A stretch of DNA of 64,000 bases from Caenorhabditis remanei. Taxonomy: Eukaryota; Nematoda; Chromadorea; Rhabditida; Rhabditidae. Made by a program: the position numbers and the translations under genes. The notes beneath the pieces were generated by a model. It was not told the DNA's origin. It made no database searches and saw only the letters and a program-made list of their open reading frames with translations. Below are positions 4,790 to 46,052 of this stretch, piece by piece. The stretch is from the NCBI RefSeq assembly GCF_010183535.1, contig NC_071333.1, forward strand, positions 16,490,587 through 16,554,586, read 5' to 3'. Each line of letters opens with the position of its first letter. Position 1 is the first letter of the stretch.

Positions 4790-5576
4790 TGTTGTCAACT
4801 ATTTCCCTAAAGACAAAATTGTCGACAACTGAAAGGCTGAATGATGAGCCCCACATGGTTTTCCCCGCAAAACTAGGCTCATCATCGCCTTACTAATCTC
4901 TTATTTCAATATTGTTCCAATCTGTTCACTAATTCACTTCATTTATCTCTTTTTAATCTCCTGTTATCAGGAATATTCAAATAATTATAATTCAAATTAC
5001 CGCTCTTAATTCCCTTTTGTCAGTAAACACGCTCTATCGCTCATCTACTCTCCTCCGCATCAACACTATCTCGTTGTCGGCGGCCGCGACGCGTGTCCGC
5101 GTAGCGGTCGACCGCGCATCTCAGACCAATCTCGTTTAACGAGAGAGGACCGTTCACCTACTTTTTGGGTAGAATGCGTGAGAGTGAGAGAGTTTTCCGG
5201 CGAAATAGATCCTTATAATTTTCCAGGACTATTTCTAGCCACTTTAGCGCGTACTGACGCTAGGAAATTCCTAAAAACTCCACCTTTTTGGGCCCTTTAG
5301 GCCAATTCAAGCGATCCGCGGTTGTGACCGCTCATTTTGTCTACTAATCGACCCGCGGCACCTCCAGCAGGACGCTTCTCTAAATATATAAAATTATCTC
5401 TCTTAAATTTAACTAAATCTTTCGTAAATAAATGGATCATTGTCTTAAAACTTGTGTTCTGTTGTCGCATTGCTCATCCTCACATTTATAGCCGTTATTC
5501 TCACATTTAAACCAGTTAGGGAAGATTTTATCCGGAGCGGGTCTGTCTCCGACCGCACTTTAGGCCCGCCTCCACA
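4790..5576 (+). repeat. 5' LTR of BEL element
   Basis: 787 bp, TGTTGTC...CTCCACA. The only difference I found from the 3' copy is T at 4856 versus G at 23233. A TATA-like box (TATATAAAA, 5385-5393) and a polyadenylation signal (AATAAA, 5427-5432) suggest U3 runs to about 5415, with a short R and then U5. Two CCGCGG sites lie near 5325 and 5353. The first 107 bases match the part of the 3' LTR that encodes the Pol C-terminus. Confidence 0.95.
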
Positions 5577-5594
5577 TGGTGCATAACGACCGTT
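5577..5594 (+). promoter_or_regulatory. Candidate primer-binding site
   Basis: The internal region begins TGGTGCATAACGACCGTT immediately after the LTR. TGG pairs with the CCA end of a tRNA, the expected position for minus-strand priming. The first eight bases would also pair with the 3' end of tRNA-Gly as I recall it, but the rest does not fit, so the primer tRNA is not identified. Confidence 0.6.
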
Positions 5595-6556
5595 CATTCT
5601 TGTAATGATTGGCCAGTGACACGTCCTCCGATTTATCGATTCGTCCGTAGAACTTCTCAGAAGTAAGCCGGAAATCGCTCAAATTAGACTATTTTACGTC
5701 TATGAGCAAGAATCGAAACGAGAGAGGCGCTAACTGTAAAAAGAACCGAGTCGGCTTCCCTTTCTGAAAAATCAAGGCTAGTGAGCAGCGATCGTGGCAT
5801 CAGAATACATTGATCCATCAAAAACCTCTAAAAATTCAAAAAATTTCGAAAATTCTCGTCAATTCCGCTTATACTCGCGATATTCTCTTCCTCTGCTTCC
5901 GTACACTTCGATCCGCGGCTGAAGTCTCTTCAAATCCGACTACAATACTGTCAAACAAGGAGAATTCATCGTCAAGGAGCGGAAAACCCGTACAACAGAA
6001 GTCACGAAGGATATTCGCAATATAAATTTAGCCGTCGCAGTCTCAAACTCGTAATACTATCCGTATAAATCGTGTTTTCCCCATGGAAAACCACGAGAAC
6101 GGTGGAGTAAAAGAGCTGATAAAACGATAAATCGATCGGTTGGCGGCCGTGACAAAATCCCATCGGGTAACCTAAAAATATCTACAAAATCTACAAAATT
6201 GTCTCAATAAGTCACATTTTCTTGTGCGAAGAGCGATTTTTCAAATCAAATTTCCATAAAAAGAGCAAATTCCGACATCGGAATGCTCCAAACCACTCAT
6301 TCTTGAGTCTCCGTAAATCGACACCTAATTATTGGTTAAATCGGACTACGGTACGCAGTGCGCGAGTCATTGTACGCAATGCGCGTGTCACTGCGGACCA
6401 TGATACACATGAGCTTACGCGCAACCGGAATTAAGTAATTTCGCGCTCGGCCTAAAATCTTTTTCGTGTATTTCCGTCATGTCGTTAAATTTTCGTGAGA
6501 TTTCTTGAAAAATACCAATATAAAAATAATTCTGAATGTATTTTCAGTAAAAAACA
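5595..6556 (+). other. Leader of the BEL element, no convincing gene
   Basis: About 960 nt with one CCGCGG site near 5911 and no frame I would call a gene. Candidate splice donors are present (GAAGTAAGC near 5660, CTAGTGAGC near 5779, GGGTAACC near 6166). A shared donor here could feed the acceptors ahead of genes A, B, C and gag. This is inference; spliced-leader trans-splicing would do equally well. The stretch ends at the acceptor TATTTTCAG (6540-6547). Confidence 0.45.
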
Positions 6557-7766
6557 ATGAATTCGTCCGACGAAAAACCTCAACTCTACGACCCGCGGCC
6601 ACGATCGGAAATAATGTCTTCAGACAACTACGAAGTCCCACAAATCGTCAAGCCAGCGGTCGCTGTGAGCCCAGTGAGTATTTATTCACAAAAATATCAA
6701 AAAATTATACAAAAAATTCGAGAAAATTCGAGAAAAACTCTAAAAAATCCGTTAATTTCGTCTGAAAATTATCGGAATTTCGGCTGGCTACACCAAAAGT
6801 GTGCTAATTCGTCAAAAATCCTATGTAAAGGAGCTAAAAACGTTAAATAAGAGCCTGTCGCCGAAAAATCGATAGCTTTCCAGCCAAAATCCTTGATTTT
6901 CAGCCAAAAATGTTCAAAAAAAGCAGTTTTTCGAGCCAAAAATCGATAAAATCCATCGATTTAAGACACAATCCAAAAAATATAGTGAGATATAAGCCAG
7001 TACTCCTAAGTATAGGTCATCTTTCCCACTTTTTTGGCGGAAACGTCACAAATTCTCGAATTTCAACACTGTCTGAGTACATATAGACTGATAAAATCAA
7101 TAAAAATGCTAAATCTAATCAATATGGGATAAAATTCTCAATGAAATAACGCTAATGTTATTGAATATTGCTATTTCCAGATCCGGGACAAAGAACCGAC
7201 CCGCGGCTTCAGACAAGCAAAATGCTCAGTCCGCGGCTGCAATCGTCGCCTCGAATTAATGGGATTCCCAACCTTCACCGACTCATCTGAGGAGGATGAA
7301 GAGAAAAGTCTCTCGACCCGCGGATCGCAAGCCACTCGATGGCCCTTCGCCAACAAAGAAGGTACATATAATAGCAAAGAGATACCCATCTAACCATTCT
7401 CCTTTTAGCCGCGGCTGAAACCACCACAGCGAGTCAGCAAATCACGCTCAACCGAGATCGTGTGGAAATGTTCTTGCAGAACATCGACATCTCAACGGCT
7501 CGCATGGCTGTAGCTCTGGAACGATCCGCGGATCAGAAAGAAGAGCAAGGAGGAAAAGGTTGGAGAGATAGCATATAAGGCAAAGAAAACAAAAGCTATA
7601 TATTCCAGCCAGAAACCGCCGCCCCCGAAACAACCAGGTCGACTTGAACAAACTCACCGACAAACTGGAGGCCCTCGAGCTAAAAATCGACCTTCTGGTC
7701 AACAATTTGATGGAGCCACCAAAGTCGACGAACCTGGAAGGAAAAGGGACCCGCGGATGGCACTAG
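6557..7766 (+). CDS. BEL accessory gene A, spliced, unknown function
   Basis: Four exons: 6557-6673, 7181-7361, 7409-7558, 7609-7766. All introns are GT-AG with good TTTCCAG or TTTTAG acceptors, and the joined frame is open for 201 residues. No family recognised. Visible features: an acidic Ser/Glu/Asp patch in exon 2 (SSEEDEEK), a C-x4-C pair (CSVRGC), and a C-terminal heptad-like helix (LNKLTDKLEALELKIDLL) suggesting a coiled coil. The ATG lies 9 nt after an acceptor (TTTTCAG ending 6547). Six CCGCGG sites fall in the exons. The strand and position match genes B and C and gag. The open spliced frame with near-identical LTRs argues for a functional gene. The function is unknown; the coiled coil suggests oligomerisation. 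Confidence 0.68.
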
Positions 7767-8002
7767 AGATAGTACGCGTTCCGCGGAAAACTCAATAAAT
7801 AATTACTGTTGAACCCCCATCTATTGTTCATCCAAACGTAACCACCCGTTACTTGTTAAACACTCTTATAAATCACTTGTTCTTACCATTGAGAAATGGT
7901 CACAAATAACCGCTTTTTGATAAGCTAATATCCGTGTATTTCGGTCATTCTTATATCTGAAACTGTGCTAGTCACAAACATTTAGTAATCAGATTATTAC
8001 AG

Positions 8003-9222
8003 ATGACCTCACACCAAGAACAGGTGCTTCAATTAGACGTGGAGAACGAAGAGACGGTTACCGCGGCACCAAGAGGTCCACGCACTCCTCCACCAGTGGA
8101 TTTCAATCAGAGTGGACCACTCGTACCGCAGAACACCAGAAGATCTCGCAGCAGATCGACAATCCACCAACCGTCGGAAATCCCTCCAAAGAGAGGAAAG
8201 ATGAACGACGAAGCCGCGGATGAGGCAGAAGATCCCGATGATGTTCACAGCGTCAAGTCGGAAGACTATACCTTGGAACCGCGGATCACGGTTGATGAAT
8301 TGCTCATCGATGGTAATAACAGTAAATCAATATAAAAAGAATACACATGCCTATTCTTCCAGAGATCCGCGGCATGCATCAATCCATCGAAAACATGGAG
8401 CTGACAATCGCGGCGAACTGTGCTCCACAGAGCATCCCGCCGGATTGGATCAAAAACTCAAACCAGATCTCAGCCAACATGGCAGCCATATTGCGCACCA
8501 ACAACGACCTCATTCGAGCAAACAACTCGACAACCGCGGCACTGCAACGCCTCGTCACACTGGCCACCAAGGACCAGAAGATCGATCTACAAAAGTCGTG
8601 GCTCAAAGGTTTCCAAGACGTCGCTCATGACAACCAAGAGACCCGCAGAGCCATCCAAAAAGTTGAAACCGCGGTTGAACAGCTCGAAGGGTCCATGTTG
8701 CGCCAAGCGGAGCCACAGATCCTACAAATCGACCCGCAGGTCAAGGAAGAAAGAGGTACTGCCTCGACAGCTCAAAAGACCAACGTGAGTTCCGTCAAAC
8801 ATTCAAAAACAAGAATACAATCAAGCCATTACAGCGCGGATGTGTCCTGTGCCAAAGACAGAGCCACCCGACTGATGCATGCAAGTCATACGTGGGATCA
8901 GATCGCATTCAAAGAGCACTACAGCTCAACATCTGCACCCGCTGTTTGGATACAAACCCAAACCCAGAACTTGGCAAGCATACCGGATGTCCAAGCGAGC
9001 TCATCAAATGCAAACGATGCATCGGCAAAGTGGTTGACACGAAAGCCGCGAATCATCATGTCGCCTTTTGTAGCTACAAAGACGAAAGATCCGCGGACGT
9101 TCCACAACCTCCCAGAAGAAACAAGGTATCAGTTACACAACCTTTTTTCATAAGATGACATGATTGACTTATAGCCAAGCCAGCCGTCAACATCCGCCCA
9201 TCACAGATCATTCTACAACTAG
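8003..9222 (+). CDS. BEL accessory gene B, spliced, Gag-like zinc-finger protein
   Basis: Four exons: 8003-8312, 8363-8784, 8835-9125, 9175-9222, joined in phase to 356 residues. The N-terminal third is Pro/Arg/Ser-rich with an Arg-Ser stretch (RRSRSRST). The middle (about residues 105-240) is helical. Exon 3 encodes three Cys/His units: CVLCQRQSHPTDAC (canonical CX2CX4HX4C), then CTRC...HTGC, then CKRC...NHHVAFC. The same three-unit order occurs in Gag of this element, so B may be a Gag-derived nucleic-acid-binding protein. The acceptor TTATTACAG ends exactly at 8002, so the ATG is the first codon after the splice site. The final exon adds only 15 residues. An unspliced readthrough of each intron would end early. 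Confidence 0.72.
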
Positions 9223-11349
9223 AAGGCGTCGATCCGCGGGTGTGGTTGTCACAGTCACTCAGAGAACAATCAACTCCATTTTTGTTCTCTCTTGTTATCT
9301 TTTTTGTTATTTTGTTGTTGTTAACCCCTTGTTACTTCTCCACTAGGAGCTTATTGTTTTGTACCCCGCCTACCGATACTCATTACCGGCTACGCCTAAT
9401 GAAAGATCAATATGTTATAACAGTCTACAATTCTCTCCTTCTCAATTTTCAAGAGTCGAGTCACTCTGTTATACCTGATTTCAGATACTTCTCGGAACGG
9501 TGGAGAGATATGAGATGATGGTCGGAAGCGGATGAGTTACGTGTTCAATTTTGAATGTCAACCAGAATTAGCCACAACAAACCCCAGCCAACACACATCA
9601 AACTGAGCAGCTTAAAAAAAGCCCTCAGGAGATAAAAAGGGGATGAAAAACCCTCATAAATGGTTCAAAGGGGATGAAAAACCCTCCTAAATGGTTCACA
9701 AAGTCACAAAAACGTGCAAGTTAACCGCAATCCGCGGAAAAAGAGCAGATGATACATCATCGCTCACAAATTTAGAGGAGAGTTCACTTTCGAAATCCCC
9801 TCCACATAAATAAAAACATAAAGAGCCTATTAAGAGTCACTTTCAGACCGAATAGCTCAAACCCGATAAAAATCAATAATTCAGCAAATACAAGCTGAAA
9901 TGCTGCGAACCCGCGGCTCAAAACCATCATAAAAGCGATTGATTCGCAACAAAATAAAATCAAAGAGAGTCACAAGAGAGAATCCATTGCGGAAACTCCA
10001 GAATCTCTAAAATAAAATCAAAGAGAGTCACAAGAGAGAATCCATTGCGGAAACTCCAGAATCTCTAAAATAAAATCAAAAAGAGACTCACAAGAGAGAA
10101 TCCATTGCGGAAACTCCAGAATCTCAAATATTATAATCAGAAGCAGGAGAACCTATAACTCTGATGCTCGAAAACAAAAGAGACACCGCTCAAATAAAAA
10201 ATCGATAATGTCAACGGCATATCGACAGATCCTGGGCAAATGTCTCAAACAAAACCATGTAGAAAACAACGTCATCTACATAAAAAATACATCAAAATCA
10301 GACAGAAACCACAGTTTCTGGAAGATTTTCAAACAACGAGATCCGCGGAAAACACCGTTTCTGCAGGATTATAAGACAAGACCGTCAAGAAGCTTCAAAA
10401 AATGGCATAAAAACACCGTCACGACTTCGCAACAATTGGCGAAGGAACGACAATTGCCAGAAACTTCGAGACAAAAACCCTCTTGAATTTTCACAGTTAA
10501 AGAGCCTCAAACATGGAAAAAACGTCGCGAATTCGCAACAAATGGCGAAGGAACGACAAATTCCAGAGACTCCGAGACAAAAACAAGTTGATTTATATTC
10601 TAAACGTTAGGCTATAGTTAGTCTATAGTTGAAGTATGGAAATTGATACATAGATTCTTTAAACTATGGCACTGTCGTCAGACGAAGCCAAATAGTATCC
10701 AGGACACTATGGTATCTCAGAGAGCCACCAACTCTCAAAAGACCCAACAAATTGTACTCACAATCAATGCACGTGACTCGGACGAAAGACAAGAAGTCTT
10801 TAAGTGGCAGTTACAGATGGAAGAAGTAGAAGGTTGTCTGTATCAGGAGTAATTAACCTGATACGCAAAGAGCGTGAGGACAACGAGTTGGTAGCAATAA
10901 TTGCAAGTCAAATCTCGGGCTGGTACCCTGAAATTTGAATAAGATCACCAAATATCGCACCATAGCGAGATATAATACGGTCTAGAGTGCCGACAGGTTG
11001 GCGTTTTTATTGCTTTCTGGTATCAAATCCATACCGATTGATAGCAAAACGTCAGCCGTGAAATCCGCGGCACAGAAAGTTATGCATAAATTCACTCTCA
11101 TAAATATAAACGTGTAACGGAAAGCAGAGCGATCGTATCTCTTTGACACGCTAACCCACTGCCCCAAATCTACACATTATATAAGAAATCTAAAACAAAC
11201 AAATTGAAATCAGTCTCAAAAATTATACGAGCAACCTTCCAAACCATAAACTCAACCATCCGGCTAGTAAGTCTCATACACGAACCCATCGTTCCGAGAA
11301 CAGTCCCGTCAGAGATCTCAATTCCATAATAAACCTATCTGTTGTTCAG
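9223..11349 (+). other. Non-coding spacer of the BEL element with several repeat blocks
   Basis: No gene is supported in about 2.1 kb. It contains a 30-bp near-duplicate (9640-9695, GGGGATGAAAAACCCTC twice), a 58-bp tandem triplet (9951-10128), and a diverged pair of about 60-bp repeats (GCAACAATTGGCGAAGGAAC near 10429 and GCAACAAATGGCGAAGGAAC near 10538). It ends with the acceptor CTGTTGTTCAG at 11349. CCGCGG sites continue through it. It could be the 3' untranslated region of gene B or a cis-acting region for packaging. Confidence 0.5.
9951..10128 (+). repeat. Tandem repeat, about 58 bp, three copies
   Basis: The unit runs from AAAATCAAAGAGAGTCACAA to GGAAACTCCAGAATCTC. Copies 1 and 2 are near-identical at 58-bp spacing; copy 3 has a small insertion (AAAAGAGACTC). 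It is followed by sequence with no further copies. It lies in the non-coding spacer between genes B and C. Confidence 0.9.
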
Positions 11350-14300
11350 ATGGCACAAAGCGAGCACAATCGTCGATTGGCACACGTGTCAAGAGACGAA
11401 GGAGTAGCCAGACCTCCAGAGATCCGCGGTCCACCCAGACAGAGTCCCACAAGACACCGTCCACCTCACCGAAACGACATCCGAGAACACCAAGTCACTT
11501 ACGAACAATTCTTTCGAAGAGACACACCGTTCGATTGGGATGCGATACAACGTTTCGCGGAAATGGAGGCAAACTGGCCGATTCCATGGCTACCTCAATC
11601 ACCATTCGATGGAGCATCTCTCAGGCTCTACGTATGGAGCGGAGATCGCCCGACACCCGCGGATCATTGGGAACAGACAGTCGCTCGTATGCCGTTCCTG
11701 GCAAACCAGGAGGAAATTAAGACATTTTCTCTCAAGTTCGCTAGAGCGACATATGAATGTACCCGCGGAGGAAAATCTCGGAGATGTCCGTATTGCGGGA
11801 GTCAGTTGCTTGGTCAGCCTCTCTACGACCATGGGCTCTTTGAATGCCCATTCTTCGAGAACCTGCCAAGTCGCGATCGATTCCGCTTCCTCGCAGTCAA
11901 TTTGGTATCGTTCTGCCAAAAGTGTAATTCAAGAAGCTCAACCCACACGGGATGCCGACCAATAGTATGCCTGATGTGCTCGAGTCCAGAACACTCATTG
12001 GCGTCCGGCGTATGCAGAGATACGGAATTGAGAGGGTTGACCGAAGGTCAACTCAGAGAAAGAGCGAATCAACACCGTCGAGACTACCTCAGACACATCC
12101 GCGGACTACTGGCATCACCAAATAACCCGTTGCAATATCGCCTACCTTCCGACTCCCCATACATCTCACTGTATAGAAGAGAAATACCCGCGGGTGCCGA
12201 AAGAAGCGGTCTCCAGATACTTCGAGTCCCACCAAGCGAGTTCCCAGGAACGCGGCTTGAAGAATACCGCGGAGCCACAGGCAGTCTAATCAGAGAATTC
12301 CCAACTCTGCGTCCACCAGAATTCGACAACGGGAACCAACTGATGATTCCCATCTTTGAGGAGGATTCAGCAAGGTATCTGGAAGAAATCGCTCGAGTGG
12401 TGACGAGAATCAGAGCAGATCCTGAGTCAGCCAGAACGGTGAGGAAAACAGATAAATAATAAAATTAATAAATTATCGACTTTCAGTTCGATCTACCCGC
12501 GGCTCCACAGGCGAACCAAAACGGCGTCAGACAGCAACGCCAGAATCCAGTGTTGCCAGCCGGGCCCCGAGCTCAACAAGTTCATAATCAACCCGCGGCT
12601 GTACCAAATGCGAATCAAGCGATCCGCGGAAGACAACCACTAGTTGAGACACCCATTCTTCGTGCCAACCCGCCAGGACTTAGAGCACCACCATCAGTGC
12701 CACCCGCGGGAACAACGAATCAAGCCACAGCAAGTGCAGCGAAGAACAGAGCTACGTCTAACTACATGAGAAGACCACCGCCTCGTCCACTGACTGAGGA
12801 TCCGGGGTCACAACCATGCTCCAGCTCACAATACGCGCCAGCTATGTATGAGTCAGCGGTAAGAACTCGGAAAGAACTGAAAAACCTTAACAATGAGTTA
12901 TTCCAGAGCTCGAGTGCACAAGCAACCAGTTCGTCGACAATCAATATTGAGAACATGTTCAACCCAGAGACATACGCGTCCATGGGTCCGTGGTCGAACG
13001 AAATGGAACGCAGAAGTACTGTTCCACAGAGAACCAACTTTGCCAGTGTACCCGCGGGAATTGAGTCTCAAGAAGTCCATTCTCAGGATAATACTCTAAT
13101 TGAGGTAAAATAATATAATAAAAATTCTCTAAAAACCGGGAAAATTCAGGCTTCTCAGCTAGCCAACAGCATGCAGATGATTCAACCCATGAGCCATCAC
13201 AGCTCGAATTCTGCCCACAACGAGGTATATTTCAACAATTTTACAGCTTGAAATAGTAAAATTCCTTATTCCAGGGATCAGAATCTCAAAGTCGTGGCAA
13301 CTCGAGGGAATCCGCGGTTGGAAGACCCAGTTCGCAAAACTCATGGCGAACAGCCAGTCCTCAGGTATAGTAGACATCAACGAAATACCAATAAATCAAT
13401 ATGAAATTGATTACAGGACCAGCTGGAAGCTAATCTCGAAAGAGAGATCCAAGCGAACGCAATCTTCCACTGTCACGAGCATCTACGTGTTGATGGGACA
13501 CCAATGAGACCGGCATTCCAGCACAGAGCTTTCCAAGAGATCGTCGGCTTAGCACCAGTTGAGAGAACCGCGGCACAAATCATACGTATCCAAACACTCC
13601 AATTCATCATCACAGCTCAGAAAGATGAGAGAATGGAGGTATACCACTATAAAAATCCGCGGCTGATCAAAGACTACCTGGACATGCTCATACGTCTTGG
13701 AGAAGCGCTGTCAACCACCGACATCATGGTTGTCAAGCTGGAGAAACGCCACAGAACCAACGTCATCCAAAAGCGAAGAGCAGGCACGGACATCTTTCCC
13801 GTGCCGTCATTCGATCTGTGGACGCACACTCACGTAGCCAACGCGATGGAGTTTATCCTTGGAACCGGAGAAGTCGGAGTCACAGAGCGTATCTACAACT
13901 TCAACGCTCGAGAGCCACGTCTATGGTTCGAGCTCGATTACCCAAGAGACATCGACCTCCCGGCAGAACTCCAAAGAGCCCGTGAGCAGCAGATGCTACA
14001 AACAGTTCGACCGACCGAGAGATACCACCCGCGGACACTAGCCCAGTTGGAAGCAACATCCAGACTCCCCATCCCCTTAGACATCGGTGCAATCCACACT
14101 CAAATCGAGTGGATGACACTGTACCTTTCGGGAACGTCGCTAGTTGATCAGAACCATGTCCCAGAATACAAAATCATGGCATACGCAGAGATGCTCAGAG
14201 CCATCCTGGAGCTCCTCATCTACCTACGCCAAGAATTCCACTTCGATCCAGCAGTCCGTTTTATCGACTGCGGAGAAGAATTAGGTGTCATGGCGGCCCG

Positions 14301-14451
14301 CGGACACAACATTGTTGCCCCCACTCTGAGACTCTTCGCATACAAAGATGTGGTCCAGGTGAAAGCATACCTTCAAATCGTCTGGAGCTCATTGATCGAA
14401 GCACATCAAGACAAACCAGAGGAATGCGAATGCATCACCACCCCAGAGTGA
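11350..14451 (+). CDS. BEL accessory gene C, spliced, large zinc-finger protein
   Basis: Five exons: 11350-12438, 12487-13104, 13150-13224, 13275-13364, 13417-14451. Every junction is GT-AG in phase 0, giving 968 residues. Around residues 135-220 are three Cys/His units: CPYC...HGLFEC, CQKCNSRSSTHTGC and CLMCSSPEHSLASGVC. Their order and spacing mirror the zinc knuckles of Gag and gene B. Residues about 364-570 are low-complexity, rich in Ala, Pro, Gln and Asn. The last exon (345 residues) is an open, helical, non-repetitive domain that I do not recognise. The ATG directly follows TTGTTCAG, so the message is made by cis- or trans-splicing at this point. About sixteen CCGCGG sites lie in the gene. 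It is longer than Gag; the role is unknown, perhaps a second structural or RNA-binding protein. Confidence 0.72.
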
Positions 14452-15565
14452 TCGATCCGCGGCTGAATATTGATTGTATCCGCGGAAATAACCAAAAATT
14501 ACTTGACCTACTCGTGTATTATTGATTTCAAGAATAAATTTGAATTCATATAAACTGTGTTCGTCTTAATGCTCTATAAATACAAAACCAAATAAAAATT
14601 TCAATATAAGTAAACTAAAGATTTCTTAAAAAGAAAAGACCTCGTGAAAAACGCATAACTACCTGACGCAGACTCACTGCTGATGAGTTGCTGTTTCTAA
14701 CCGCAAAAGACCAATGCTGTCAAGCCAGCGCCGCTAGTGTCACCCACCTTTGAGTCGCTGACACGAAAAAGGGAACAAGAAATAGGCCTCCCTTATAAGC
14801 CCTAGTCGACCACGTTCCCGCGGTCGTAACTGGCGGGCAAAGGTCCGGAACAGTCACAAATCACTGCTCAAATCAGTTTGAGTTACATCCTTTGCGAACG
14901 ACGGACACAAATCTCCAGTTTCGAAATCATGGACACATGATTAGATGTAACCCAAGAAGAAGCTAACACCCTTCTTCCCCATCGTAAAGGTACTGAGGAG
15001 TATAAAATCAACAAAACTAACCCAGACCAATCACAAATTATTGGTCGAAAAGCCACAGATGCACAAATTCATCTATCGGCTGAACCCAGATGCACAAATC
15101 CATCTACCCTCTGAACCCGATCACATAGACCAACGGCTAGGGATGCCTGCCGTATGGACCCTGACTTGCACCCACAGCACACCACTAGTGTGAAGTCGTG
15201 GGCACACGATTAGGTGTAGGTCAGGTCCTGCGAGTCTACGGGCAAAGAAAAGCACGCATACCATGAGTGCTCAAAGAAATCAAGACTGTGACACACACAC
15301 AGGCACACCATTAGTGTGGGGTCGTGGGCACACGACTTGGTGCAAGCAGTCCTGTAAGCCGAAGTGGGGAAGGAACGGAACATGACCGAAGACGGACCCG
15401 CGGAGGCCCATCTAAGAGCTACTCATGATATATAAGTCAAGTCCTAACTCGCGACTTCCATCATCTCAAGTCGCTCCACCACCGAGGCTAACACCCCTCA
15501 TTCTCATCAACATTATTTTTTCTTACAGTTATCTGAACTCCCTTGTCTCTGACAAATCTCCAAGG
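14452..15565 (+). other. Spacer and candidate gag leader of the BEL element
   Basis: No gene seen in about 1.1 kb. A diverged direct repeat of about 45 bp, GCACACCACTAGTGTG...GGGCACACGATTAGGTG (15173-15217), recurs at 15299-15343. A shorter repeat pair lies at about 15055-15120 (CAGATGCACAAATTCATCTA). A TATA-like stretch (ATGATATATAAG, 15425-15436) and an acceptor (TTTTTTCTTACAG, 15516-15528) precede the gag ATG. Confidence 0.5.
15173..15343 (+). repeat. Diverged direct repeat pair upstream of gag
   Basis: Two copies of a motif containing CACACCA-TAGTGTG and GTCGTGGGCACACGA, at 15173-15217 and 15299-15343. CACACCA/TAGTGTG and TCGTGGGCACACGA are locally self-complementary, so each copy could form a hairpin in RNA. 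Confidence 0.6.
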
Positions 15566-18262
15566 ATGCTAAGCCGTCTTAGCCGTCGTACTTCTAGATC
15601 TCCTGTGGGTCGCAAAGAACGCTCTCTTCCAGTTGAAAGAGAGCAAATCCGCGGCAAAATCCGGTCGAAATCGCAACCGAAGTCCGTAATGACCTCGATT
15701 GTCGGTCCGACCAAATCAGCGATCACGAAAACTGTGACCAAAGCCAAAGCTCTGAAGACAGATGCAGAAGCCGCGGTTCAATTTCTTCAAGACCCTACCA
15801 ACAAATACCCTGATGATATCAGCCAAGAAACAATTCAAGCAGCCACATCACTTGTACTCAACATGAAGACAGTGGTGGCGAGAATTGAGGGTTTCGACGC
15901 ATTCATCTATAATCAGTTCCAAAAGTCCGCAATGAAAAAACTACCGGAAAGAGAAACTCTTCTCCGCGACGTCACGGACGCACTCCGAGCAAGCGGAGCA
16001 GACGGGTTACATAAGCAACTCACCGCTCAAATCGCTGAAGTGGAGCAAATCCTAACGGCTTTTGGAACACCAATGAGTAGCCTCCAACCACCTAACCAGC
16101 CCCAAGATCCACAATCTTGTGAAGCGATTACTGAAATGGAAAACTACATCTACGAGGCAAATCACAGCATAGAGACAATCCATCTGGGTGATGAGCTGCC
16201 TCACTCTCTCGACTCTAGAGACGAGTCCGCTTCCAGCTCACATCCTATCACCTCGTCTCAAGACCGTGAACTATCCATGATGTACTCCGACAGTGCGTTT
16301 CCAGATCGTACACGAGAAATTCAGCAAAGACTATTAGCTGAAAACCGCCGGTTGAAAGAGGAGAACGCTCAGCACATTCGTGCTCAATATGAAGAAGAAA
16401 AGAGAAGATATGCTGCCAACATGCAAGATCTCCAATACCGAGAATCTCTTGCAGCTGAACTAGCGAAGGCTCAAGCAAAAGAGGAAAACTGGATGTCGCG
16501 GCTCAATCAACACGTTGAGGCAAGACAAGCACAAGAGAATGCTAACCAGGAATCCGCGGGTGTCATTACCACCAGCTCGCCATTGCCACCGTTCGAGCCG
16601 CCAACCGTCAGAACAATTGCTGATCCGGTGGTAGAGTCTTTCGAACCGGTGACTGACAACAGAGTTGTACCGTCCCCAGCTCAAAGCCAAAGCATTCCAG
16701 CTGCAATTATTGTTCCTCAAGAGGATTATGTACAGGAGACTCCGATCCTGCGCACAGCACATCAGATCTATCAACAGAACATTGAGCCGAGAACCGCGGA
16801 ATCACTACACAGCACCCGCAATCCTGTTCTAAACGACCTAATGAATGTCCTCTCAAACATTGCCCAAAACCAAAGAGCAACAGAGAGAAACATTCTACAG
16901 CAAACAACCCACATGGTCCAAGATATGGAACAGAGACTCGGTGCACAAATACATGAAAGAGCTGAGTCTTTAAGATCCAGAACAACTAGCAGAAGATCTC
17001 GGGCCAGAAGTCCAGCCCGTTCGGAGTCAAGTTATGCGCGCAGATATGAACGTGGTGATCCTTCAGACTCGGAAGACGAATCAATCCAACCGACACCACC
17101 TCGTAACGCGCCGACCCACCGAATCCGATCACGCAGCCCGACGCCGATACCTCGTAACAGAGGTCTGAAGCTGGAAGTCAGACTAAAACTTCTGCAAAAG
17201 TTCGATGGATCGAATGACTTGGATCATTTCCAAACATTGTTCACAAAATTCGTCCTTGAGGACACGGATCTGAACCCGGAAGCAAAACACGCAGTGCTGA
17301 TGAACCACATAACCGGTCCAGCTTCAAAATGCGTTTCACACGCCAGAGACCCCTCAGTTGCCATCATGATGACATTCACAGCACTGAATAAAGTCTATGG
17401 AAAAGTGAATAATAAACACAATCTGCTCAGAAAATTGCAAAGCTTACCATTCCATCAAACAGACCCAGAAGCCATGCGGCTAGACGCGGCCTCTCTTACC
17501 AACGTCCTACAACAGCTAAAGGACAGAGGAGTACCCGCGGACGACCACATGACTATGTGGGCGATTGCGTGCAAGCTCCCAGAGAGCATGCAAAAAAGCC
17601 TAGCCAAATACACTGTCAAGATGGGCGAAGTTCTAACCCACGATCTAATTCTCGACAGAATCAGTCGAGATATTGAAACGATGGCAATGGAACAGACGTA
17701 TGTCAGTCAACGCAGTCCCCCAGCAAATGAGCTGACGGGATCATACGCTACGGTCAACTTTGCAAATGCTACACCGAGCAGACAAAAATCCGCGGCTCAG
17801 CACAAAGGAAATAACTCAAGTAGATCACGCAAGCTGGCATACGATCCAAAAGCAGTCGAATCGGAATACACTGACCCGATTACAAAAGCTAAATTGGAGG
17901 GTATTTACGCTCCAGGAGAAAAAGGTGTCAATCCCAGAGTCATTTACCGCACATTCCCCTTCCACGAAAAGGAAGAAGCCAAATGCAACGTCTGCCGCGG
18001 AGATCACCACGAGATCCGCTGCACCCTCTCAAGCAAAGCATTCAGAGACACGTGCAAAGCGAAAGGGTTGTGCCCAATCTGTACTCGAAAACATGACATC
18101 ACAGCTTGCACTACCACCTTCCGTTGTGGATATTGCAGCGGATTACACCACCTCGGTGGCTGCCCAAAGAAAGAGTTCTATAGAGACATGAAGAACTACC
18201 CAAAGGACGCTCCAAAAGTGGCCACGTTTTTTCGTGCCCCACACACCAACAAATCGCAGTAA
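15566..18262 (+). CDS. gag: Gag polyprotein of BEL element
   Basis: The frame is open from 15425. I prefer the ATG at 15566 because a strong acceptor ends at 15528, which would give 898 residues. The N-terminus is basic (SRLSRRTSRSPVGRK). A coiled-coil region (about 16310-16560, rich in Glu/Arg/Ala) and an Arg-Ser tract (RSRTTSRRSRARS) follow. A helical capsid-like domain starts near 17160 (LEVRLKLLQKFDGSND) and has the PELP/BEL Gag wording FxGxxxxxxxFxxxFxxxV. The C-terminus has three zinc knuckles with identical CX2CX3HX4C spacing: CNVCRGDHHEIRC, CPICTRKHDITAC and CGYCSGLHHLGGC. Gag coats and packages the genomic RNA. The last 71 nt overlap the pol frame, which is +1 to gag. Confidence 0.9.
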   Translation: MLSRLSRRTSRSPVGRKERSLPVEREQIRGKIRSKSQPKSVMTSIVGPTKSAITKTVTKAKALKTDAEAAVQFLQDPTNKYPDDISQETIQAATSLVLNMKTVVARIEGFDAFIYNQFQKSAMKKLPERETLLRDVTDALRASGADGLHKQLTAQIAEVEQILTAFGTPMSSLQPPNQPQDPQSCEAITEMENYIYEANHSIETIHLGDELPHSLDSRDESASSSHPITSSQDRELSMMYSDSAFPDRTREIQQRLLAENRRLKEENAQHIRAQYEEEKRRYAANMQDLQYRESLAAELAKAQAKEENWMSRLNQHVEARQAQENANQESAGVITTSSPLPPFEPPTVRTIADPVVESFEPVTDNRVVPSPAQSQSIPAAIIVPQEDYVQETPILRTAHQIYQQNIEPRTAESLHSTRNPVLNDLMNVLSNIAQNQRATERNILQQTTHMVQDMEQRLGAQIHERAESLRSRTTSRRSRARSPARSESSYARRYERGDPSDSEDESIQPTPPRNAPTHRIRSRSPTPIPRNRGLKLEVRLKLLQKFDGSNDLDHFQTLFTKFVLEDTDLNPEAKHAVLMNHITGPASKCVSHARDPSVAIMMTFTALNKVYGKVNNKHNLLRKLQSLPFHQTDPEAMRLDAASLTNVLQQLKDRGVPADDHMTMWAIACKLPESMQKSLAKYTVKMGEVLTHDLILDRISRDIETMAMEQTYVSQRSPPANELTGSYATVNFANATPSRQKSAAQHKGNNSSRSRKLAYDPKAVESEYTDPITKAKLEGIYAPGEKGVNPRVIYRTFPFHEKEEAKCNVCRGDHHEIRCTLSSKAFRDTCKAKGLCPICTRKHDITACTTTFRCGYCSGLHHLGGCPKKEFYRDMKNYPKDAPKVATFFRAPHTNKSQ

Positions 18263-21200
18263 AGGCATTTCGGCAGACACAGAGTCAAAAGTACCGAACT
18301 CTGTGTCAAACGCTGACTTGCCAACAGCATCTAGCACTAACACATGCTCTATTATTTCCGTTCCTTGTTCTACTAATATTGTCTCTCAAAAACATAGTTC
18401 TCAATCCGCGGTTGCAGAAGGTAGCTTCCCTCGATCCGCGGTTCAATCCGTTACAAATCCCAAAACAATATCCTATTTCAAAAATCTTGTTAAAACTAAT
18501 TACGCCGAAAAAGGTGATCCAGAAAAATTGGCCTTACAGCTATTCACTCAGTTTCTCAAAAGATCAGACCATCATGTCAACTCGGCATTTGCTCCGAATG
18601 ATACAACACGTCTCACTTTCCTTTACCTGGAAACACCAGACGAACAGCCTCTCCTCTGTCTAATCGACTCAGGCGCGTCGTTGTCACTCATTCTGGAATC
18701 AACAGCTAAAAATTACCAGCTACCGGTCTTGAAACGAACTAGACTGTCAGTCCAAGGATTCGGATCCACCACATTCGCAAACTCAAATATTTACGCATTA
18801 CAAATTATGTTACAAGAATCCAAACACGATCTATCAATTATGATTGTAGGATCACCCACGCTACCAAAAACTCAGTATCGAGCACCAATACTATCTCTTG
18901 AAGATGCAAGGTTCTTACAAAGACAGAACATTGACATGAGTTCAGCTATCAATAGTGGCGATTATAATGTTCACAACATTCACATGATCATTGGCAACGA
19001 CATACTGTCGTACATCACTGCACAACCCAACTATTGCAAGTATATACTCCCATCTGGCAGAGCATTGGAAAGAACTATAATCGGAAACATCGTTCATCCG
19101 ATACCAAAGCTAGCCCTATGGAACAAAGCAGTAGATCCGCCATTGTCAGATCAATACCAAATCGCCATGAATGTAGCCAACACTCTGTTGAGTAGCTGTG
19201 AACCAGAAGATGCTATGACAAAACTGACTCTCCAAATTGCCGAAATGTACAGGTTGGAAAACCTGGGCATTGAAAATCCTTCTGTTCTTGACAACTTCAA
19301 AAAATCCACACTGGATCTCCTACAGGAGTTTTTCAATACTGTCAAATTCAACGAAGAAGGCAAACCAGAAGTTGCCCTTCCATACAATGGCAACGAGTCA
19401 CGTCTAGCTGATAATTACAACGTGTGCTTCAAGAGACTAGTCAGCCTGGTCGTAACTCTGAAAAAAGGCGTAGATCTACTCTCAAAATATGATACTATCA
19501 TTACTGGTCAAGAATCCGCCGGCTTCATTGAGAAAGTAACCGCGGAAATGCTGAAAGCTGAGGGTCCCAAATACACTATTCCCCACCGAGGAGTAGTGAA
19601 AGAAGACTCACTCACAACAAAGCTGAGAATCGTTCTCGACGCATCTAGTCATGCTAGAGGCGAACTCTCGCTAAACGACTGTCTCCACGCCGGAACCAAC
19701 ATGATTACCCCAATTTTCGGAATCCTGATAAGGATGAGATGCCCGCGGTTCATCATTGTTGCTGACATCGAGAAAGCATTTCATCAGGTGCGCCTGCAAC
19801 CTGAATTCAGAAATGTCACAATGTTCCTATGGCTCAAAGACATCTCAGCTCCAGTATCCGCGGAAAATATCGAAGTGTACAGATTCCGCCGAATCCCATT
19901 TGGAATGTCCAGCAGCCCATTCTTGCTTGCGGCGTACATTACCTACAATCTAGACATCAATCCCCATGAATTAAATGAGGAGATCAAAGACAACTTGTAC
20001 GTCGACAATGCTTTATTCTGTACAAACGACAGATCTGAGATTGCTACGAAGATCAAAGGTACAAAATTCATTTTCAAAAGAATGGATATGAACCTGCGGG
20101 AATACATCGTAAATGATCCAGATACCATGGAAGCACTTCCAGAATCAGAAAAAGCGCAAGCCACCACTATCAAGCTGTTAGGCTACAAATGGAATTCTAC
20201 AGAAGACACTCTCACAGTAAAGATTGCTGCGTTGGATATTGACCATCCCACAAAAAGAGATGTTGCTTCCAAACTTGCTGAGACTTTTGATCCCCTTGGA
20301 CTTGTGTCACCTATCATGGTCCCATTCAAAAGGCTCATGCAAAGAATATGGGAAAATGGCAAGAGTGTCAACTGGAAAGATCGCATCCCAAAGGAGCTAC
20401 TTCCAGATTGGAGAGCCCTGCGGAACATCTTCATTGACAGAGAACTCACAGTCCCGAGACAGCTCACGCCAAATTACAATTATTCTGAAGTCCATTTGCT
20501 AATGTTTAGCGATGCGTCCCAGGACATGTATGCGGCATGTTGCTATGCGTGCTTTGTCGTGAAAGGTGAAACACCGGTTGTAACTCTGCTTACCAGTAAG
20601 AACAAAATCCGCCCGTCTAAACACGAGAGCTGGACCATTCCAAAACTCGAGCTACTTGCAATCCAACTAGCCTCAAATCTCGCGTGTGCCATCGTCGCAG
20701 AGCTAAGAATCTCTATCACTTCTATCAAACTGTTCACCGACTCTTCCTGCAGTATTTACTGGGTTCTTTCTGAAAATAACCCCCGGCAATGGGTGGCTAA
20801 TCGGAAAACGACGATCAATGACAATATGAAAAAGATGGAAGAGTGTGGAATTCCCACTACCATCCATCATTGTCCCACCAAGCAAAACCCAGCTGACTAC
20901 GCAACCCGCGGAATGAGTACCAGAGAAGTACAGAACAGTAAAATGTGGTTCGAAGGCCCAAGCTTCCTGAAAGCTGATCCATCAACATGGCCATGTATGA
21001 TTGCAGGAAAAGTTACCTGTCCAGCTGAGTTCCGAGAACTGGTGTACTCCGAGATCATCGATCCGGACACCAAAAAGAAAAGGAAACCACTCATGGAGAA
21101 AAAAGTAGCCAAACCAGCCGAGAATGTCCAGCGATCCGCGGTTGAACAGAAGACAGACGACACCGTCATGATTCTAAACAGCCAAACGACGAGACCCGGA

Positions 21201-23273
21201 TCTTTCATCCCATATACAGCAACAAACTCTCTTCAAAAATTGACAAAAATTGTTGTACTAATATTAAAAACATTCAGCATAATCAAAAACAAGTCTTGGG
21301 AAAGTCCAGTAATGACTCAGTTCTTAAGTTCTGACTGTCCGCTACATCAAGCGAAAGTCGCCAGATTGCTGATAATCACCGAGCACTACAAAGACTGTGA
21401 TTATCTAGACTACTCATTCCCGTCTGATATCGAGCACTTCACTGATACTTATGGAGTTCGTCGGGTACACAGAAGAATTACATCTCCAGTACTTCCACAG
21501 GAAGCCAGTGAGCCAATTCTCATCCACCCGCGGCATCCATTGGCGAAACTCATCGCTCGCGAAACACATGAAATCAATGGACACATGCCAGAAGTCTATA
21601 CAACTTCAGCCATCAAAACGAGATATTGGATCCCAAAATTGGGAGGCATTCTAAAGAACGTGATCCGCGGTTGTGTCAAATGCCAGAAAGTAAACAACTT
21701 TCCATTCGATTATCCATACACCAAAGATCTCCCACTATGCCGGACCACTCCGTCCAAACCATTCTCGAAAGTCGGCTTAGACTACCTTGGTCCAATCATG
21801 TACCGCGGTGACGATGGTCAAACCAATAAAAAGGCGTATGTCTTGGTCTACACCTGCTTGATAACACGTGGAGCAGTACTGAGAGTTGTTCCAGATGGAA
21901 CATCACAACGATACATCCTCACCCTGAAAATGATTTTCAGAGAAGTTGGTGTACCCAAAGTCATTTTCTCAGACAATGCTTCCACATTCAAATTAGGCGG
22001 TTCCATGATCAATAAAGACATCGAAGATTCAGTATACAGTCATTCACTTGTATCATTCCTAGCCTCTGAAGTTATCGATTTCAAGTATATCACACCTCTT
22101 GCCCCATGGCAAGGGGGAATCTACGAAAGAATCGTGAAACTTGTCAAACACCAACTGATAAAAGAGTGCGGAATACGAACTTATGACTTTTACGATCTCC
22201 AATACATTGTATCAGGTGCTCAAGCTATGGTTAACAATAGACCACTAATCCCACACTCAAGAAGTCCACGTGACATGATTGCTCTCCGACCCATGGACTT
22301 TATAGCCCCAGGCGTCATGACTGAAATTCCAGCAGACTCAGAGAAGTCCGATGCGCCCCCACGGAGCACAGAGGCTACCGTACGAGCTCATATCAACAAA
22401 ATGGAAGCAGCCACTGACAGACTTTGGGAGACGTGGTCCAATGGATACCTACTCCATCTCAGAGAGAACATGCACACCAAAAAACGCTCTTCGTTATTAC
22501 GACCCGCGGTTGGACAATTGGTGATTATTGTTACCAAACTTCTAAAACGGCACAAATGGCCATTGGGACTAATCGTTCATGTCGAAAGATCAAAACGCGA
22601 CGGACAGATTCGATCCGCGATCGTAAAGTGCAGAGGCAAATTATACTCTCGTGCAGTCTCTCAGTTGATTCCTCTTGAATTAAATCCACTGAACCGCCCT
22701 AATATTGCAACAGAGGAAGAGACAGGAGATACACAGGACTCCAGTCCAAGAGAGCTACCAGCACCCGCGGTTCTGTTCGATCCAAACATGAAATACGCCC
22801 CAGAGCTATTCCCGTCTAAAGACCTACCAAACATTGCTGAATGTGAAAACAAAAACCCCGATCATAAAATTAATGAATCAAATAATATAAATATACCACT
22901 GAACCTAAACACCGATCATCTTGAGAATAATGTAGTGTCAGGTGACACAGATGACGATTTTGATATCATTGAAAAGAGATTGGGAACCGCGGATACTTAT
23001 CAAGATCCACAAAGAGTCTTACCGGCTGAAGCCGCGGATGATGATTTTTCGGAGTTGCCAGCGGGCAGAGTTAGAACATATCTTTCTCGAAAAGCCAAAG
23101 AGCTTCCGATCAATTACGTTCATCACGCTGACAGTCAGGGGACCGCTGGCACCCTCCCCCCGGGAATGTTGTCAACTATTTCCCTAAAGACAAAATTGTC
23201 GACAACTGAAAGGCTGAATGATGAGCCCCACAGGGTTTTCCCCGCAAAACTAGGCTCATCATCGCCTTACTAA
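18192..23273 (+). CDS. pol: Pol polyprotein: protease, reverse transcriptase, RNase H, integrase
   Basis: The open frame is entered by frameshift; about 1,680 residues counted from 18234. Aspartic protease: LIDSGASLSLI near residue 142. Reverse transcriptase: ADIEKAFHQV (about 509), RRIPFGMSSSPF (about 550), and the active-site motif as YVDN (about 588). RNase H: FSDASQD, PKLELLAI and FTDSSCS (about 756-838), ending ADYATRG. Integrase: zinc-binding HEINGH...CVKCQK (about 1111-1150), then DYLGP (about 1181), FSDNAS (about 1244) and GIYERIVK (about 1296) for the DDE triad. The tail reads 107 nt into the 3' LTR, which encodes the last 35 or so residues. No stop codon or frameshift breaks the frame. 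YVDN in place of YVDD is a variant I associate with nematode Pao-like sequences. Confidence 0.92.
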   Translation, partial: RTTQRTLQKWPRFFVPHTPTNRSKGISADTESKVPNSVSNADLPTASSTNTCSIISVPCSTNIVSQKHSSQSAVAEGSFPRSAVQSVTNPKTISYFKNLVKTNYAEKGDPEKLALQLFTQFLKRSDHHVNSAFAPNDTTRLTFLYLETPDEQPLLCLIDSGASLSLILESTAKNYQLPVLKRTRLSVQGFGSTTFANSNIYALQIMLQESKHDLSIMIVGSPTLPKTQYRAPILSLEDARFLQRQNIDMSSAINSGDYNVHNIHMIIGNDILSYITAQPNYCKYILPSGRALERTIIGNIVHPIPKLALWNKAVDPPLSDQYQIAMNVANTLLSSCEPEDAMTKLTLQIAEMYRLENLGIENPSVLDNFKKSTLDLLQEFFNTVKFNEEGKPEVALPYNGNESRLADNYNVCFKRLVSLVVTLKKGVDLLSKYDTIITGQESAGFIEKVTAEMLKAEGPKYTIPHRGVVKEDSLTTKLRIVLDASSHARGELSLNDCLHAGTNMITPIFGILIRMRCPRFIIVADIEKAFHQVRLQPEFRNVTMFLWLKDISAPVSAENIEVYRFRRIPFGMSSSPFLLAAYITYNLDINPHELNEEIKDNLYVDNALFCTNDRSEIATKIKGTKFIFKRMDMNLREYIVNDPDTMEALPESEKAQATTIKLLGYKWNSTEDTLTVKIAALDIDHPTKRDVASKLAETFDPLGLVSPIMVPFKRLMQRIWENGKSVNWKDRIPKELLPDWRALRNIFIDRELTVPRQLTPNYNYSEVHLLMFSDASQDMYAACCYACFVVKGETPVVTLLTSKNKIRPSKHESWTIPKLELLAIQLASNLACAIVAELRISITSIKLFTDSSCSIYWVLSENNPRQWVANRKTTINDNMKKMEECGIPTTIHHCPTKQNPADYATRGMSTREVQNSKMWFEGPSFLKADPSTWPCMIAGKVTCPAEFRELVYSEIIDPDTKKKRKPLMEKKVAKPAENVQRSAVEQKTDDTVMILNSQTTRPGSFIPYTATNSLQKLTKIVVLILKTFSIIKNKSWESPVMTQFLSSDCPLHQAKVARLLIITEHYKDCDYLDYSFPSDIEHFTDTYGVRRVHRRITSPVLPQEASEPILIHPRHPLAKLIARETHEINGHMPEVYTTSAIKTRYWIPKLGGILKNVIRGCVKCQKVNNFPFDYPYTKDLPLCRTTPSKPFSKVGLDYLGPIMYRGDDGQTNKKAYVLVYTCLITRGAVLRVVPDGTSQRYILTLKMIFREVGVPKVIFSDNASTFKLGGSMINKDIEDSVYSHSLVSFLASEVIDFKYITPLAPWQGGIYERIVKLVKHQLIKECGIRTYDFYDLQYIVSGAQAMVNNRPLIPHSRSPRDMIALRPMDFIAPGVMTEIPADSEKSDAPPRSTEATVRAHINKMEAATDRLWETWSNGYLLHLRENMHTKKRSSLLRPAVGQLVIIVTKLLKRHKWPLGLIVHVERSKRDGQIRSAIVKCRGKLYSRAVSQLIPLELNPLNRPNIATEEETGDTQDSSPRELPAPAVLFDPNMKYAPELFPSKDLPNIAECENKNPDHKINESNNINIPLNLNTDHLENNVVSGDTDDDFDIIEKRLGTADTYQDPQRVLPAEAADDDFSELPAGRVRTYLSRKAKELPINYVHHADSQGTAGTLPPGMLSTISLKTKLSTTERLNDEPHRVFPAKLGSSSPY
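18227..18236 (+). promoter_or_regulatory. Candidate +1 ribosomal frameshift site between gag and pol
   Basis: In the gag frame the codons read TTT TTT CGT GCC (18227-18238). The pol frame is open only from 18192 and lies +1 to gag, whose stop is at 18260-18262. UUU_CGU is the known shift-prone motif of the influenza PA-X type: tRNA-Phe can move from UUU to UUC, and the next codon would be the GTG at 18234. This is the only motif of that kind I saw in the overlap. A spliced route cannot be excluded. Confidence 0.6.
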
Positions 23274-23953
23274 TCTCTTATTTCAATATTGTTCCAATCT
23301 GTTCACTAATTCACTTCATTTATCTCTTTTTAATCTCCTGTTATCAGGAATATTCAAATAATTATAATTCAAATTACCGCTCTTAATTCCCTTTTGTCAG
23401 TAAACACGCTCTATCGCTCATCTACTCTCCTCCGCATCAACACTATCTCGTTGTCGGCGGCCGCGACGCGTGTCCGCGTAGCGGTCGACCGCGCATCTCA
23501 GACCAATCTCGTTTAACGAGAGAGGACCGTTCACCTACTTTTTGGGTAGAATGCGTGAGAGTGAGAGAGTTTTCCGGCGAAATAGATCCTTATAATTTTC
23601 CAGGACTATTTCTAGCCACTTTAGCGCGTACTGACGCTAGGAAATTCCTAAAAACTCCACCTTTTTGGGCCCTTTAGGCCAATTCAAGCGATCCGCGGTT
23701 GTGACCGCTCATTTTGTCTACTAATCGACCCGCGGCACCTCCAGCAGGACGCTTCTCTAAATATATAAAATTATCTCTCTTAAATTTAACTAAATCTTTC
23801 GTAAATAAATGGATCATTGTCTTAAAACTTGTGTTCTGTTGTCGCATTGCTCATCCTCACATTTATAGCCGTTATTCTCACATTTAAACCAGTTAGGGAA
23901 GATTTTATCCGGAGCGGGTCTGTCTCCGACCGCACTTTAGGCCCGCCTCCACA
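23167..23953 (+). repeat. 3' LTR of BEL element
   Basis: 787 bp, same ends as the 5' copy with one substitution at 23233. The pol stop codon lies inside it at 23271-23273. The sequence just upstream (CACCCTCCCCCCGGGAA) has only five purines next to the LTR, so a classical polypurine tract is not evident. Its polyadenylation signal AATAAA is at 23804-23809. Confidence 0.95.
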
Positions 23954-23958
23954 GAAGT
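23954..23958. repeat. Target-site duplication of BEL element, right copy
   Basis: GAAGT, identical to 4785-4789. Confidence 0.93.
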
Positions 23959-46033: not shown

Positions 46034-46052
46034 ACACTTTTTATTATCAATC

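Follow-up and report, generated by a model that had tools for sequence, protein, structure and literature searches.

An oriented CCGCGG array as the family A version of a candidate RNA recognition tag in large Bel/Pao retrotransposons of Caenorhabditis remanei

Dispersed RNA packaging signals have been described in parechovirus, enterovirus-E, HBV, MS2 and STNV; in the accounts available they are short motifs in stem-loops, many to one genomic RNA, which the virus's own structural protein is thought to bind. In the VANDAL DNA transposons of Arabidopsis the element-encoded protein VANC binds duplex DNA at short motifs that lie in noncoding regions, in tandem repeats, mark the elements and differ between related families (PMC5735166, available text). 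Cer1 of C. elegans, a Caenorhabditis LTR element, carries an extra protein, CERV, which has a Cys-rich, possibly zinc-binding loop, joins the nuclear genomic RNA and is needed for RNA export (PMC10309623). The available part of that account names no RNA motif for CERV and mentions neither a palindrome nor CCGCGG, and it has Cer1 feeding GAG-sharing exons into CERV, a difference from the element described here (PMC10309623). Each of these precedents differs from the oriented, family-specific words that we report. The common parts of Caenorhabditis Bel/Pao elements are Gag, Pao peptidase, RT, integrase and DUF5641.

The window, the whole 64,000-nt stretch of DNA analysed here, holds an element that we assign to family A (Table 1). 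Its LTRs, target-site duplication and Pao-type pol make it a Bel/Pao LTR retrotransposon, and it appears from its sequence to be a young insertion, with one mismatch between the LTRs over 787 bp. Pfam matches in pol include PF05380 (3.2e-58), RVT_1 (2.7e-09), Integrase_H2C2 (1.3e-08) and DUF5641 (1.1e-12), and the closest named C. elegans protein is ZK228.2, at 52% identity. In the family A element an interval of ~9.8 kb, with extra open frames and the motif array, separates the 5' LTR from gag and may set it apart from Bel/Pao elements of the ZK228.2 type, known here from protein alone. No relative was found among viral contigs.

Table 1. Features of the family A element, in window coordinates
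Feature	Position	Strand	Remarks
Target-site duplication, left	4785..4789	.	sequence GAAGT
Bel/Pao element, family A	4790-23953	+	LTRs 99.9% identical, 5-bp target-site duplication
5' LTR, 787 bp	4790..5576	+	CCGCGG at 5316, 5353; zero in initial 526 bp
CCGCGG array, n=64, context AYCCGCGG	5316..23037	+	first site 5316; final site before the 3' LTR 23032
Protein A region	7961..9158	+	overlapping open frames 7961-8335, 8326-9153, 8679-9158
Protein B	11350..12459	+	open frame, three CCHC-type zinc stretches
Proline-rich open frame 3' of protein B	12472..13113	+	possible second exon
Protein C	13411..14451	+	open frame; mostly helical by prediction (poor model)
gag frame	15416..18262	+	DUF1759 and nucleocapsid-type zinc knuckles
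pol frame	18192..23273	+	retropepsin-like (weak), RT, Pao peptidase A17, integrase zinc domain, DUF5641; end within 3' LTR
3' LTR	23167..23953	+	CCGCGG at 23693, 23730
Target-site duplication, right	23954..23958	.	sequence GAAGT

The preliminary description of this DNA had reported about 66 copies of CCGCGG in the element and none in its flanks, and exactly 66 lie inside 4790-23953, with 0 in the remaining ~44.8 kb. It had expected fewer than five by chance; the 5' LTR and internal part (18,377 nt) hold 64, where dinucleotide frequencies predict 1.9. Over 500 Markov-1 simulations the count averaged 1.88 and never exceeded 8, and the runner-up palindromic hexamer reaches 12 copies. Its remark that A stands two bases ahead of the core in most copies was borne out (55/64), and the one-sided contexts of the motif number 25 sense and 2 antisense. 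Counting one-mismatch hexamers, as it had suggested, placed all 18 at chance level, at 1-5 copies each against 1.2-4.0 expected. Two further statements stood in part: CCGCGG does occur in the LTRs, two copies in each, but begins only at position 527 of 787, and the 21 sites, out of 64, that lie within gag and pol do use all three codon phases, but unevenly (2, 14 and 5). Neighbours of CCGCGG able to pair by wobble are not enriched (TCGCGG 3 vs 2.3 expected, CCGTGG 1 vs 1.7), which weighs against palindrome pairing or RNA dimerisation as the main function. The sites are single, their surroundings are mutually dissimilar, and no helical phasing was seen among them; as a weak, post-hoc observation, four of the 63 gaps measure 29-32 nt and none is shorter than 23 nt. 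Genome-wide, close CCGCGG pairs number 322, against 181 for a reversed-pattern control, and those listed first lie in other, unrelated repeats, so CCGCGG per se is not exclusive to the family A element within the genome.

In a comparison with a ~90%-identical copy over the 5' region, CCGCGG was kept at 36/36 sites against 4660/7981 (58%) of all hexamers, which shows that the family A sites are held by strong selection and bears out the earlier view that selection is on nucleic acid. The idea that the sites are inserted 6-bp blocks was rejected: some sites fall in alignment gaps, others are residue replacements in place. Pol codons that carry sites are less conserved across families than other codons (P0002, 18/34 vs 1152/1605), which would fit turnover between families. 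Motif inference from protein sequences alone was dropped as too noisy; it had hinted at CCGCGG in P0002 and P0017, and its A-context version gave no support for P0002.

The analysis drew on 29 pol matches and, from a separate set of 139 peptidase A17 matches, on one further place. The related families are without a comparable CCGCGG array, and each has an oriented word of its own. In families B and C, whose pol is 71% and 68% identical to that of A, CCGCGG occurs 0-4 times per 9.9-kb piece. The family B word, the non-palindromic TCCCGCCG, occurs 63, 38 and 32 times in sense in the three copies and never in antisense, and beside the 63 exact octamers there are just 5 one-mismatch copies. For family C the word is CAACAYCCGC (27/0 and 25/0 in two copies), and its close pairs genome-wide number 6, every one within the four C elements. 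Family E has CCGCT (54 sense, 1 antisense), family H ACCGCG (26 and 1, one copy), and family G the short and less sharp CCCAC (one copy). Most of these words share a CCGC core, they sit in coding and noncoding sequence, and their pol codon phases are uneven (B, 8 and 2 of 10; E, 18, 7 and 7). In A, B and C alike the initial part of the LTR is motif-free. A degree of sense bias is seen for CCCAC and CCGCT in other families as well. The family G word is only moderately above controls (six-letter z of 7.8 in pol and 5.4 upstream, where one ordinary flank piece reaches 8.2); for H, the pol piece alone gives 8.3, no better than the flank control, and the upstream piece 12.7. Arrays, orientation and family specificity are firmly established for A, B and C and well established for E, and come from one copy each for H and G. 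These word counts cover two of the four C copies, one of three E, one of four G and one of two H; they leave out C4:1755012/1759023 (D-like), both F copies and a partial A copy at C6:21254377, and take in the A copy at C5:15574321 as a 6.7-kb locus only, with 18 CCGCGG. In 3.6 kb scanned of a distant Bel copy with no protein B nearby (L036), no word was significant (ACCGA 19/0, z 4.9; TACCGA 7/0, z 5.4).

Several proteins of the element could read such words, and zinc knuckles can act as readers of single-stranded RNA. The frames of protein A, which may be exons of a single protein, encode a coiled-coil-like part and three Cys-X2-Cys...His...Cys stretches, and tblastn finds relatives in families B and C. 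Protein B has twelve invariant zinc ligands and is found 5' of pol in A, B, C, E, F and H and in one G copy, the matches in H and a further group being weak (27-31% identity); it was undetected in the G copy used for word counts and in two further G copies, and nothing in Pfam or PDB matched it above the cut-off. Structure prediction returned mean pLDDT values of 33 and 45. Where most of protein B is missing from a copy, the two LTRs are identical and yet 49, 32 and 38 sites remain, which fits a tag acting in cis and a reader acting in trans. We take protein B as the leading candidate reader, with protein A and the Gag nucleocapsid as alternatives; co-occurrence does not single out protein B, because zinc arrays are present in Gag and in protein A too.

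The arrays are real, oriented, exact and different between families; RNA as their target, the reader and the step served are what we infer from them. CCGCGG, in the context AYCCGCGG, is probably the family A version of a sense-strand recognition tag in a clade of large multi-gene Bel/Pao elements, where a zinc-array protein of the element would read it on genomic RNA and so serve nuclear export and/or packaging. The word would be repeated along the unspliced genomic RNA of each family; a zinc-array protein, candidate protein B, would sit on that RNA every few hundred nucleotides and single it out from host and rival RNA for export and/or packaging; and each family would have shifted to a word different from the others, so that mutually private codes would operate within one nucleus. 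Strict orientation favours recognition of RNA, or of a single strand, over marking of double-stranded DNA or chromatin, one of the functions raised in the preliminary description. Its suggestion of RNA dimers through the palindrome fares no better, because the family B word is non-palindromic and stands 63/0, and palindrome pairing is disfavoured as the main function since sister-family words are non-palindromic. It had left the choice between an element-encoded and a host-encoded factor; the former is plausible, but one common host factor for CCGCGG is argued against because protein-conserved relatives carry other words. Relatives with conserved proteins and no enrichment, it held, would count against a function, and CCGCGG is indeed not enriched to a comparable degree in B and C, but a different family-specific word is present there.

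A reading that we consider unlikely, though it deserves weight, is that the sites are dispersed packaging signals with the Gag nucleocapsid as their sole reader, while proteins A and B serve other functions. At the DNA level a common sense-strand motif does recur at many sites, Gag has zinc knuckles, gag relatives adjoin pol in B, C, E, G and H (all the families covered upstream), and the G copy in which protein B was undetected still has one. However, the Gag architecture is generic Bel, the words differ sharply between families (a comparison of words, not of gag zinc parts), and the array extends over 18 kb, farther than any packaging signal is known to require. When 64 A, 62 B and 54 E sites were folded locally, no consistent RNA-structure context emerged, stem-loop or other (p of 0.12, 0.045 with slightly more open sites, and 0.14), whereas the viral signals, as described in the available accounts, are motifs in stem-loops; the words here are exact, 6-10 nt long, carried by a retrotransposon, and exchanged for another word from one sister family to the next within a single host.

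An anti-silencing or chromatin tag, by which a VANC-like element protein would bind provirus DNA and keep the provirus active, strikes us as improbable. Family words here do behave like VANC motifs in being short, lying within the element and differing between relatives, but in the available text those motifs are noncoding tandem repeats of DNA transposons (PMC5735166), and here, in an LTR retrotransposon whose reader is a candidate only, single, dispersed, strand-locked sites with unrelated flanks extend into coding sequence, 21 of 64 in gag-pol. The motif-free LTR start in three families is a further difficulty, and the 63/0 orientation, unexpected if duplex DNA were read regardless of direction, would speak against duplex binding.

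We give very little credence to a sense-RNA shield against small-RNA silencing, in which a protein or the C-rich word itself blocks the host RNA-dependent RNA polymerase or Argonaute targeting: the words are confined to the sense strand, and sense RNA is the template copied in nematode silencing, but a shared host pathway leaves exact words, family by family, unexplained. That the array arose as a side effect of composition (of bases or codons), of repeats or of common descent can be practically dismissed, for although A and C are abundant on the sense strand (A 0.326, C 0.253, G 0.200, T 0.221) and gag-pol phases are uneven, the Markov simulations and real flanks speak against it, site flanks are mutually unlike, 41/64 sites lie upstream of gag, and sites are kept while their surroundings diverge.

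To our knowledge, how retroelements tell their own RNA from host or rival RNA is largely open outside a few retroviruses. What is offered here is a candidate cis code that is legible in the DNA itself and changes from one sister family to another; the proteins that might read it are few, and the genus is open to genetics. The key feature of the code is not the palindrome but the oriented, family-specific word. The constraint at the nucleic-acid level inside retrotransposon coding sequence is strong, and could mislead protein-based evolutionary rates. A wider possibility, which we hold to be evenly balanced between right and wrong, is a retrotransposon clade with mutually private RNA address codes, in which a 6-10-nt word would recur dozens of times per family RNA, coding sequence included, a fast-evolving zinc-array reader would handle only RNAs with that word, and deletion derivatives that keep the word would be carried in trans. 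With a readable candidate code and a list of readers, the specificity of recognition, the co-evolution of word and reader and the trans-mobilisation of deletion copies become testable.

Positions 4790-23953 of the window (C6:16490587-16554586 in the 130.5 Mb assembly G000) are a Bel/Pao LTR retrotransposon. Its pol frame shares 99% identity with CRE_13318, and the window matches Caenorhabditis remanei. The interval from 5' LTR to gag is ~9.8 kb and holds further open frames, named here proteins A, B and C. Pol lies in another frame than gag, so that frameshifting or splicing would be needed for its expression.

Features of the element and its neighbourhood, in window coordinates
Feature	Position	Description
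LTRs		787 bp each; one mismatch between the pair
Target-site duplication		GAAGT
Protein A	7961-9158	several overlapping frames; three zinc-type stretches
Repeats between proteins A and B	9941-10131 and 10406-10584	a ~60-bp sequence in three near-identical direct copies; a further 73-bp sequence present twice
Protein B	11350-12459	three CCHC-type stretches; proline-rich frame next
Protein C	13411-14451	open frame
gag		DUF1759
pol		peptidase A17, RT, integrase zinc domain, DUF5641
gag/pol overlap	18192-18262	pol out of frame with gag (calculated offset +1)
Minisatellite	24260-24746	just downstream of the element, outside it; GGCGGAA/GCGGAAA; 41-bp and 7-bp periods
Type-B DNA polymerase (PF03175) frame beside integrase-core and chromodomain frame	36023-37591 (+) and 37878-38933 (-)	resembles a Polinton/Maverick-type element
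Rhodopsin-family receptor frame (PF00001)	60846-62054	ordinary host gene

The preliminary description put some 66 CCGCGG across the whole element where fewer than five would be expected, with none in the flanks, and this was borne out: all 66 copies in the window fall within the element, and in 18,377 nt of it 64 were observed versus 1.9 expected, with a maximum of 8 across 500 simulations. The proposed count of one-mismatch neighbours revealed no enrichment, so the word is all-or-nothing. The sites are distributed over LTR (2), LTR-to-gag interval (41), gag (7) and pol (14). An A mostly stands two bases before the core, as had been noted (55 of 64 sites), and a T two bases past it in 32 of 64. 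The further claim that codon phase is ignored holds in that all three phases are used in gag-pol, but their use is uneven (2, 14 and 5). Contexts that are one-sided number 25 sense versus 2 antisense (P = 0.0005, base composition allowed for), where a direction-blind reading of duplex DNA would be expected to give an about even split; the other family A copies, which are related and hence not independent, gave 21/4, 29/1, 25/1 and 18/1.

Comparison among copies likewise set the sites apart from their flanks, as the preliminary description had suggested checking. From LTR to protein C, all 36 sites are intact between the window and L013 (the family A copy at C5:14747296; nucleotide identity 0.897), whereas well-aligned hexamers in general are kept in 4660 of 7981 cases and GC-rich hexamers in 188 of 347. 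Three other copies kept 34 of 35 (L015; one of the 36 left out as poorly aligned), 15 of 17 (L009; 19 left out) and 15 of 16 (L017; sites from 11000 on). Conservation of the six core bases in this 5' stretch is 0.98-1.00 over a background of 0.883, and positions -2 and -1 are slightly raised as well. Over 14094-23166, five copies retained 22/24 (2 left out), 24/26, 25/26, 25/26 and 25/26 sites versus 92, 80, 79, 79 and 78% of hexamers, so that this stretch on its own is only mildly above background; the single site lost from all five, 14818, has no A at -2. The L013 copy and another of family A (C5:14747296, +; C5:14753973, -) lie tail to tail with pol frames 1.6 kb apart, both LTR pairs identical and intact-looking.

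A pol search of the assembly gave 29 matches. Two pieces each were read for five further A copies, three of three B and two of four C, and one copy each for D (pol only, decayed), E, G and H; protein identity is 97-99% in A, then 71% (B), 68% (C), 63% (D), 56% (E), 47% (G) and 45% (H). Four of the five A copies, with both LTRs present, carry 43, 49, 62 and 63 CCGCGG; the fifth (L011/L012), with no LTR match between its pieces, has 24 in the pol piece. Sense/antisense counts are 63/0, 38/0 and 32/0 for the B word TCCCGCCG (an octamer with 63 exact versus five one-mismatch copies), 27/0 and 25/0 for the C word AACAYCCGC, and 4/0 for a C-type word in D. Close pairs of CAACAYCCGC number six genome-wide, all inside the four C elements, and the complete A, B and C words are found 0-6 times in families other than their own. 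Shorter words mark E (CCGCT 54/1, ACCGCT 33/0), G (CCCAC 44/1, TCCCAC 23/0) and H (ACCGCG 26/1). Such words are sense-biased elsewhere too: CCGCT counts are 24/7 (B) and 25/6 (C), those of CCCAC 24/1 (B) and 23/7 (A). The case for E and H, and most of all for G, therefore depends on excess over expectation. In pol, z reached 14.3 for E (five letters; maximum in 60 simulations 4.7), 8.5 for G (five letters; 4.3) and 8.3 for H (six letters; 6.5); in upstream pieces it was 11.5 for E, 12.7 for H and, for G, 6.4 (TCTACG) and 5.4 (TCCCAC). Leaving aside homopolymers, one simple repeat and one minisatellite, window-flank controls had six-letter maxima of 4-8.2, which leaves the G word suggestive, not firm. 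The highest non-simple control was 43701-48600 (AAAATG, 28 sense and 5 antisense, z 8.2), where TCGTCG is also over-represented. In the 3.6 kb of a distant Bel copy, L036 (C2:6474400-6478000, - strand), ACCGA (19/0) and TACCGA (7/0) are sense-only but fall short of significance.

Five A LTRs have their first sense site at 526-535, three B LTRs at 405-406 and two C LTRs at 424; a downstream AATAAA follows some 101-312 nt later, and B LTRs have an additional earlier AATAAA at 268-270. Pooling one motif-free stretch per family, ~3.8 sites would be expected and the chance of zero is ~2% by arithmetic. These motif-free LTR starts would fit an array limited to transcribed sequence.

Zinc-type stretches are found by pattern in proteins A and B (three each) and in Gag (two, with a third by eye). 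With the family C protein B as query, relatives turned up upstream of pol in families A, B, C, E, F and H and in one G copy, as well as next to another group of Bel elements (C3:16147655 and kin); the matches in H and that group are weak (27-31% identity). With the family E protein C as query, relatives were confined to families A, B and C and the E/F group. Protein B is 42-46% identical between families, with its twelve zinc ligands invariant in an alignment of two family A sequences, one from B and two from C. It had no convincing match in Pfam or PDB, and AlphaFold models were unusable. Three copies without most of protein B (L009/10, L019/20, L023/24) have 100% identical LTR pairs and keep 49, 32 and 38 sites; the array stays in cis, and a reader, if protein B, could act in trans. 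Counting against protein B, it was not detected near three of four G copies, including the one read. An annotated C. remanei protein, P0121 (GCK72_011150), combines a PIF1-helicase domain with a segment that shares 85% identity with protein B, reflecting either a fused annotation or a nested element.

The nearest known process belongs to the C. elegans element Cer1, where CERV, made from spliced mRNA, associates with nuclear genomic RNA and is needed for RNA export, cysteines and an arginine of its Cys-rich loop being essential (PMC10309623). Dispersed packaging signals and VANC motifs partly share the logic of these arrays, but descriptions of the former place them in stem-loops, and VANC motifs are described as duplex-DNA motifs in noncoding tandem repeats (PMC5735166). 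A search of open-licence PMC papers, mostly by listing, turned up no description of arrays like these in Bel elements, though one may exist.

The words are exact, locked to one strand, private among sister families and present in coding sequence too. Together with the zinc-array proteins, these traits point to an element protein that recognises sense RNA. We lean towards genomic RNA being read in this way for export or packaging, the sequence data favouring neither, and are less confident that protein B would be the reader. An element-encoded protein would recognise its family's word on the sense genomic RNA and so may serve its export or packaging.
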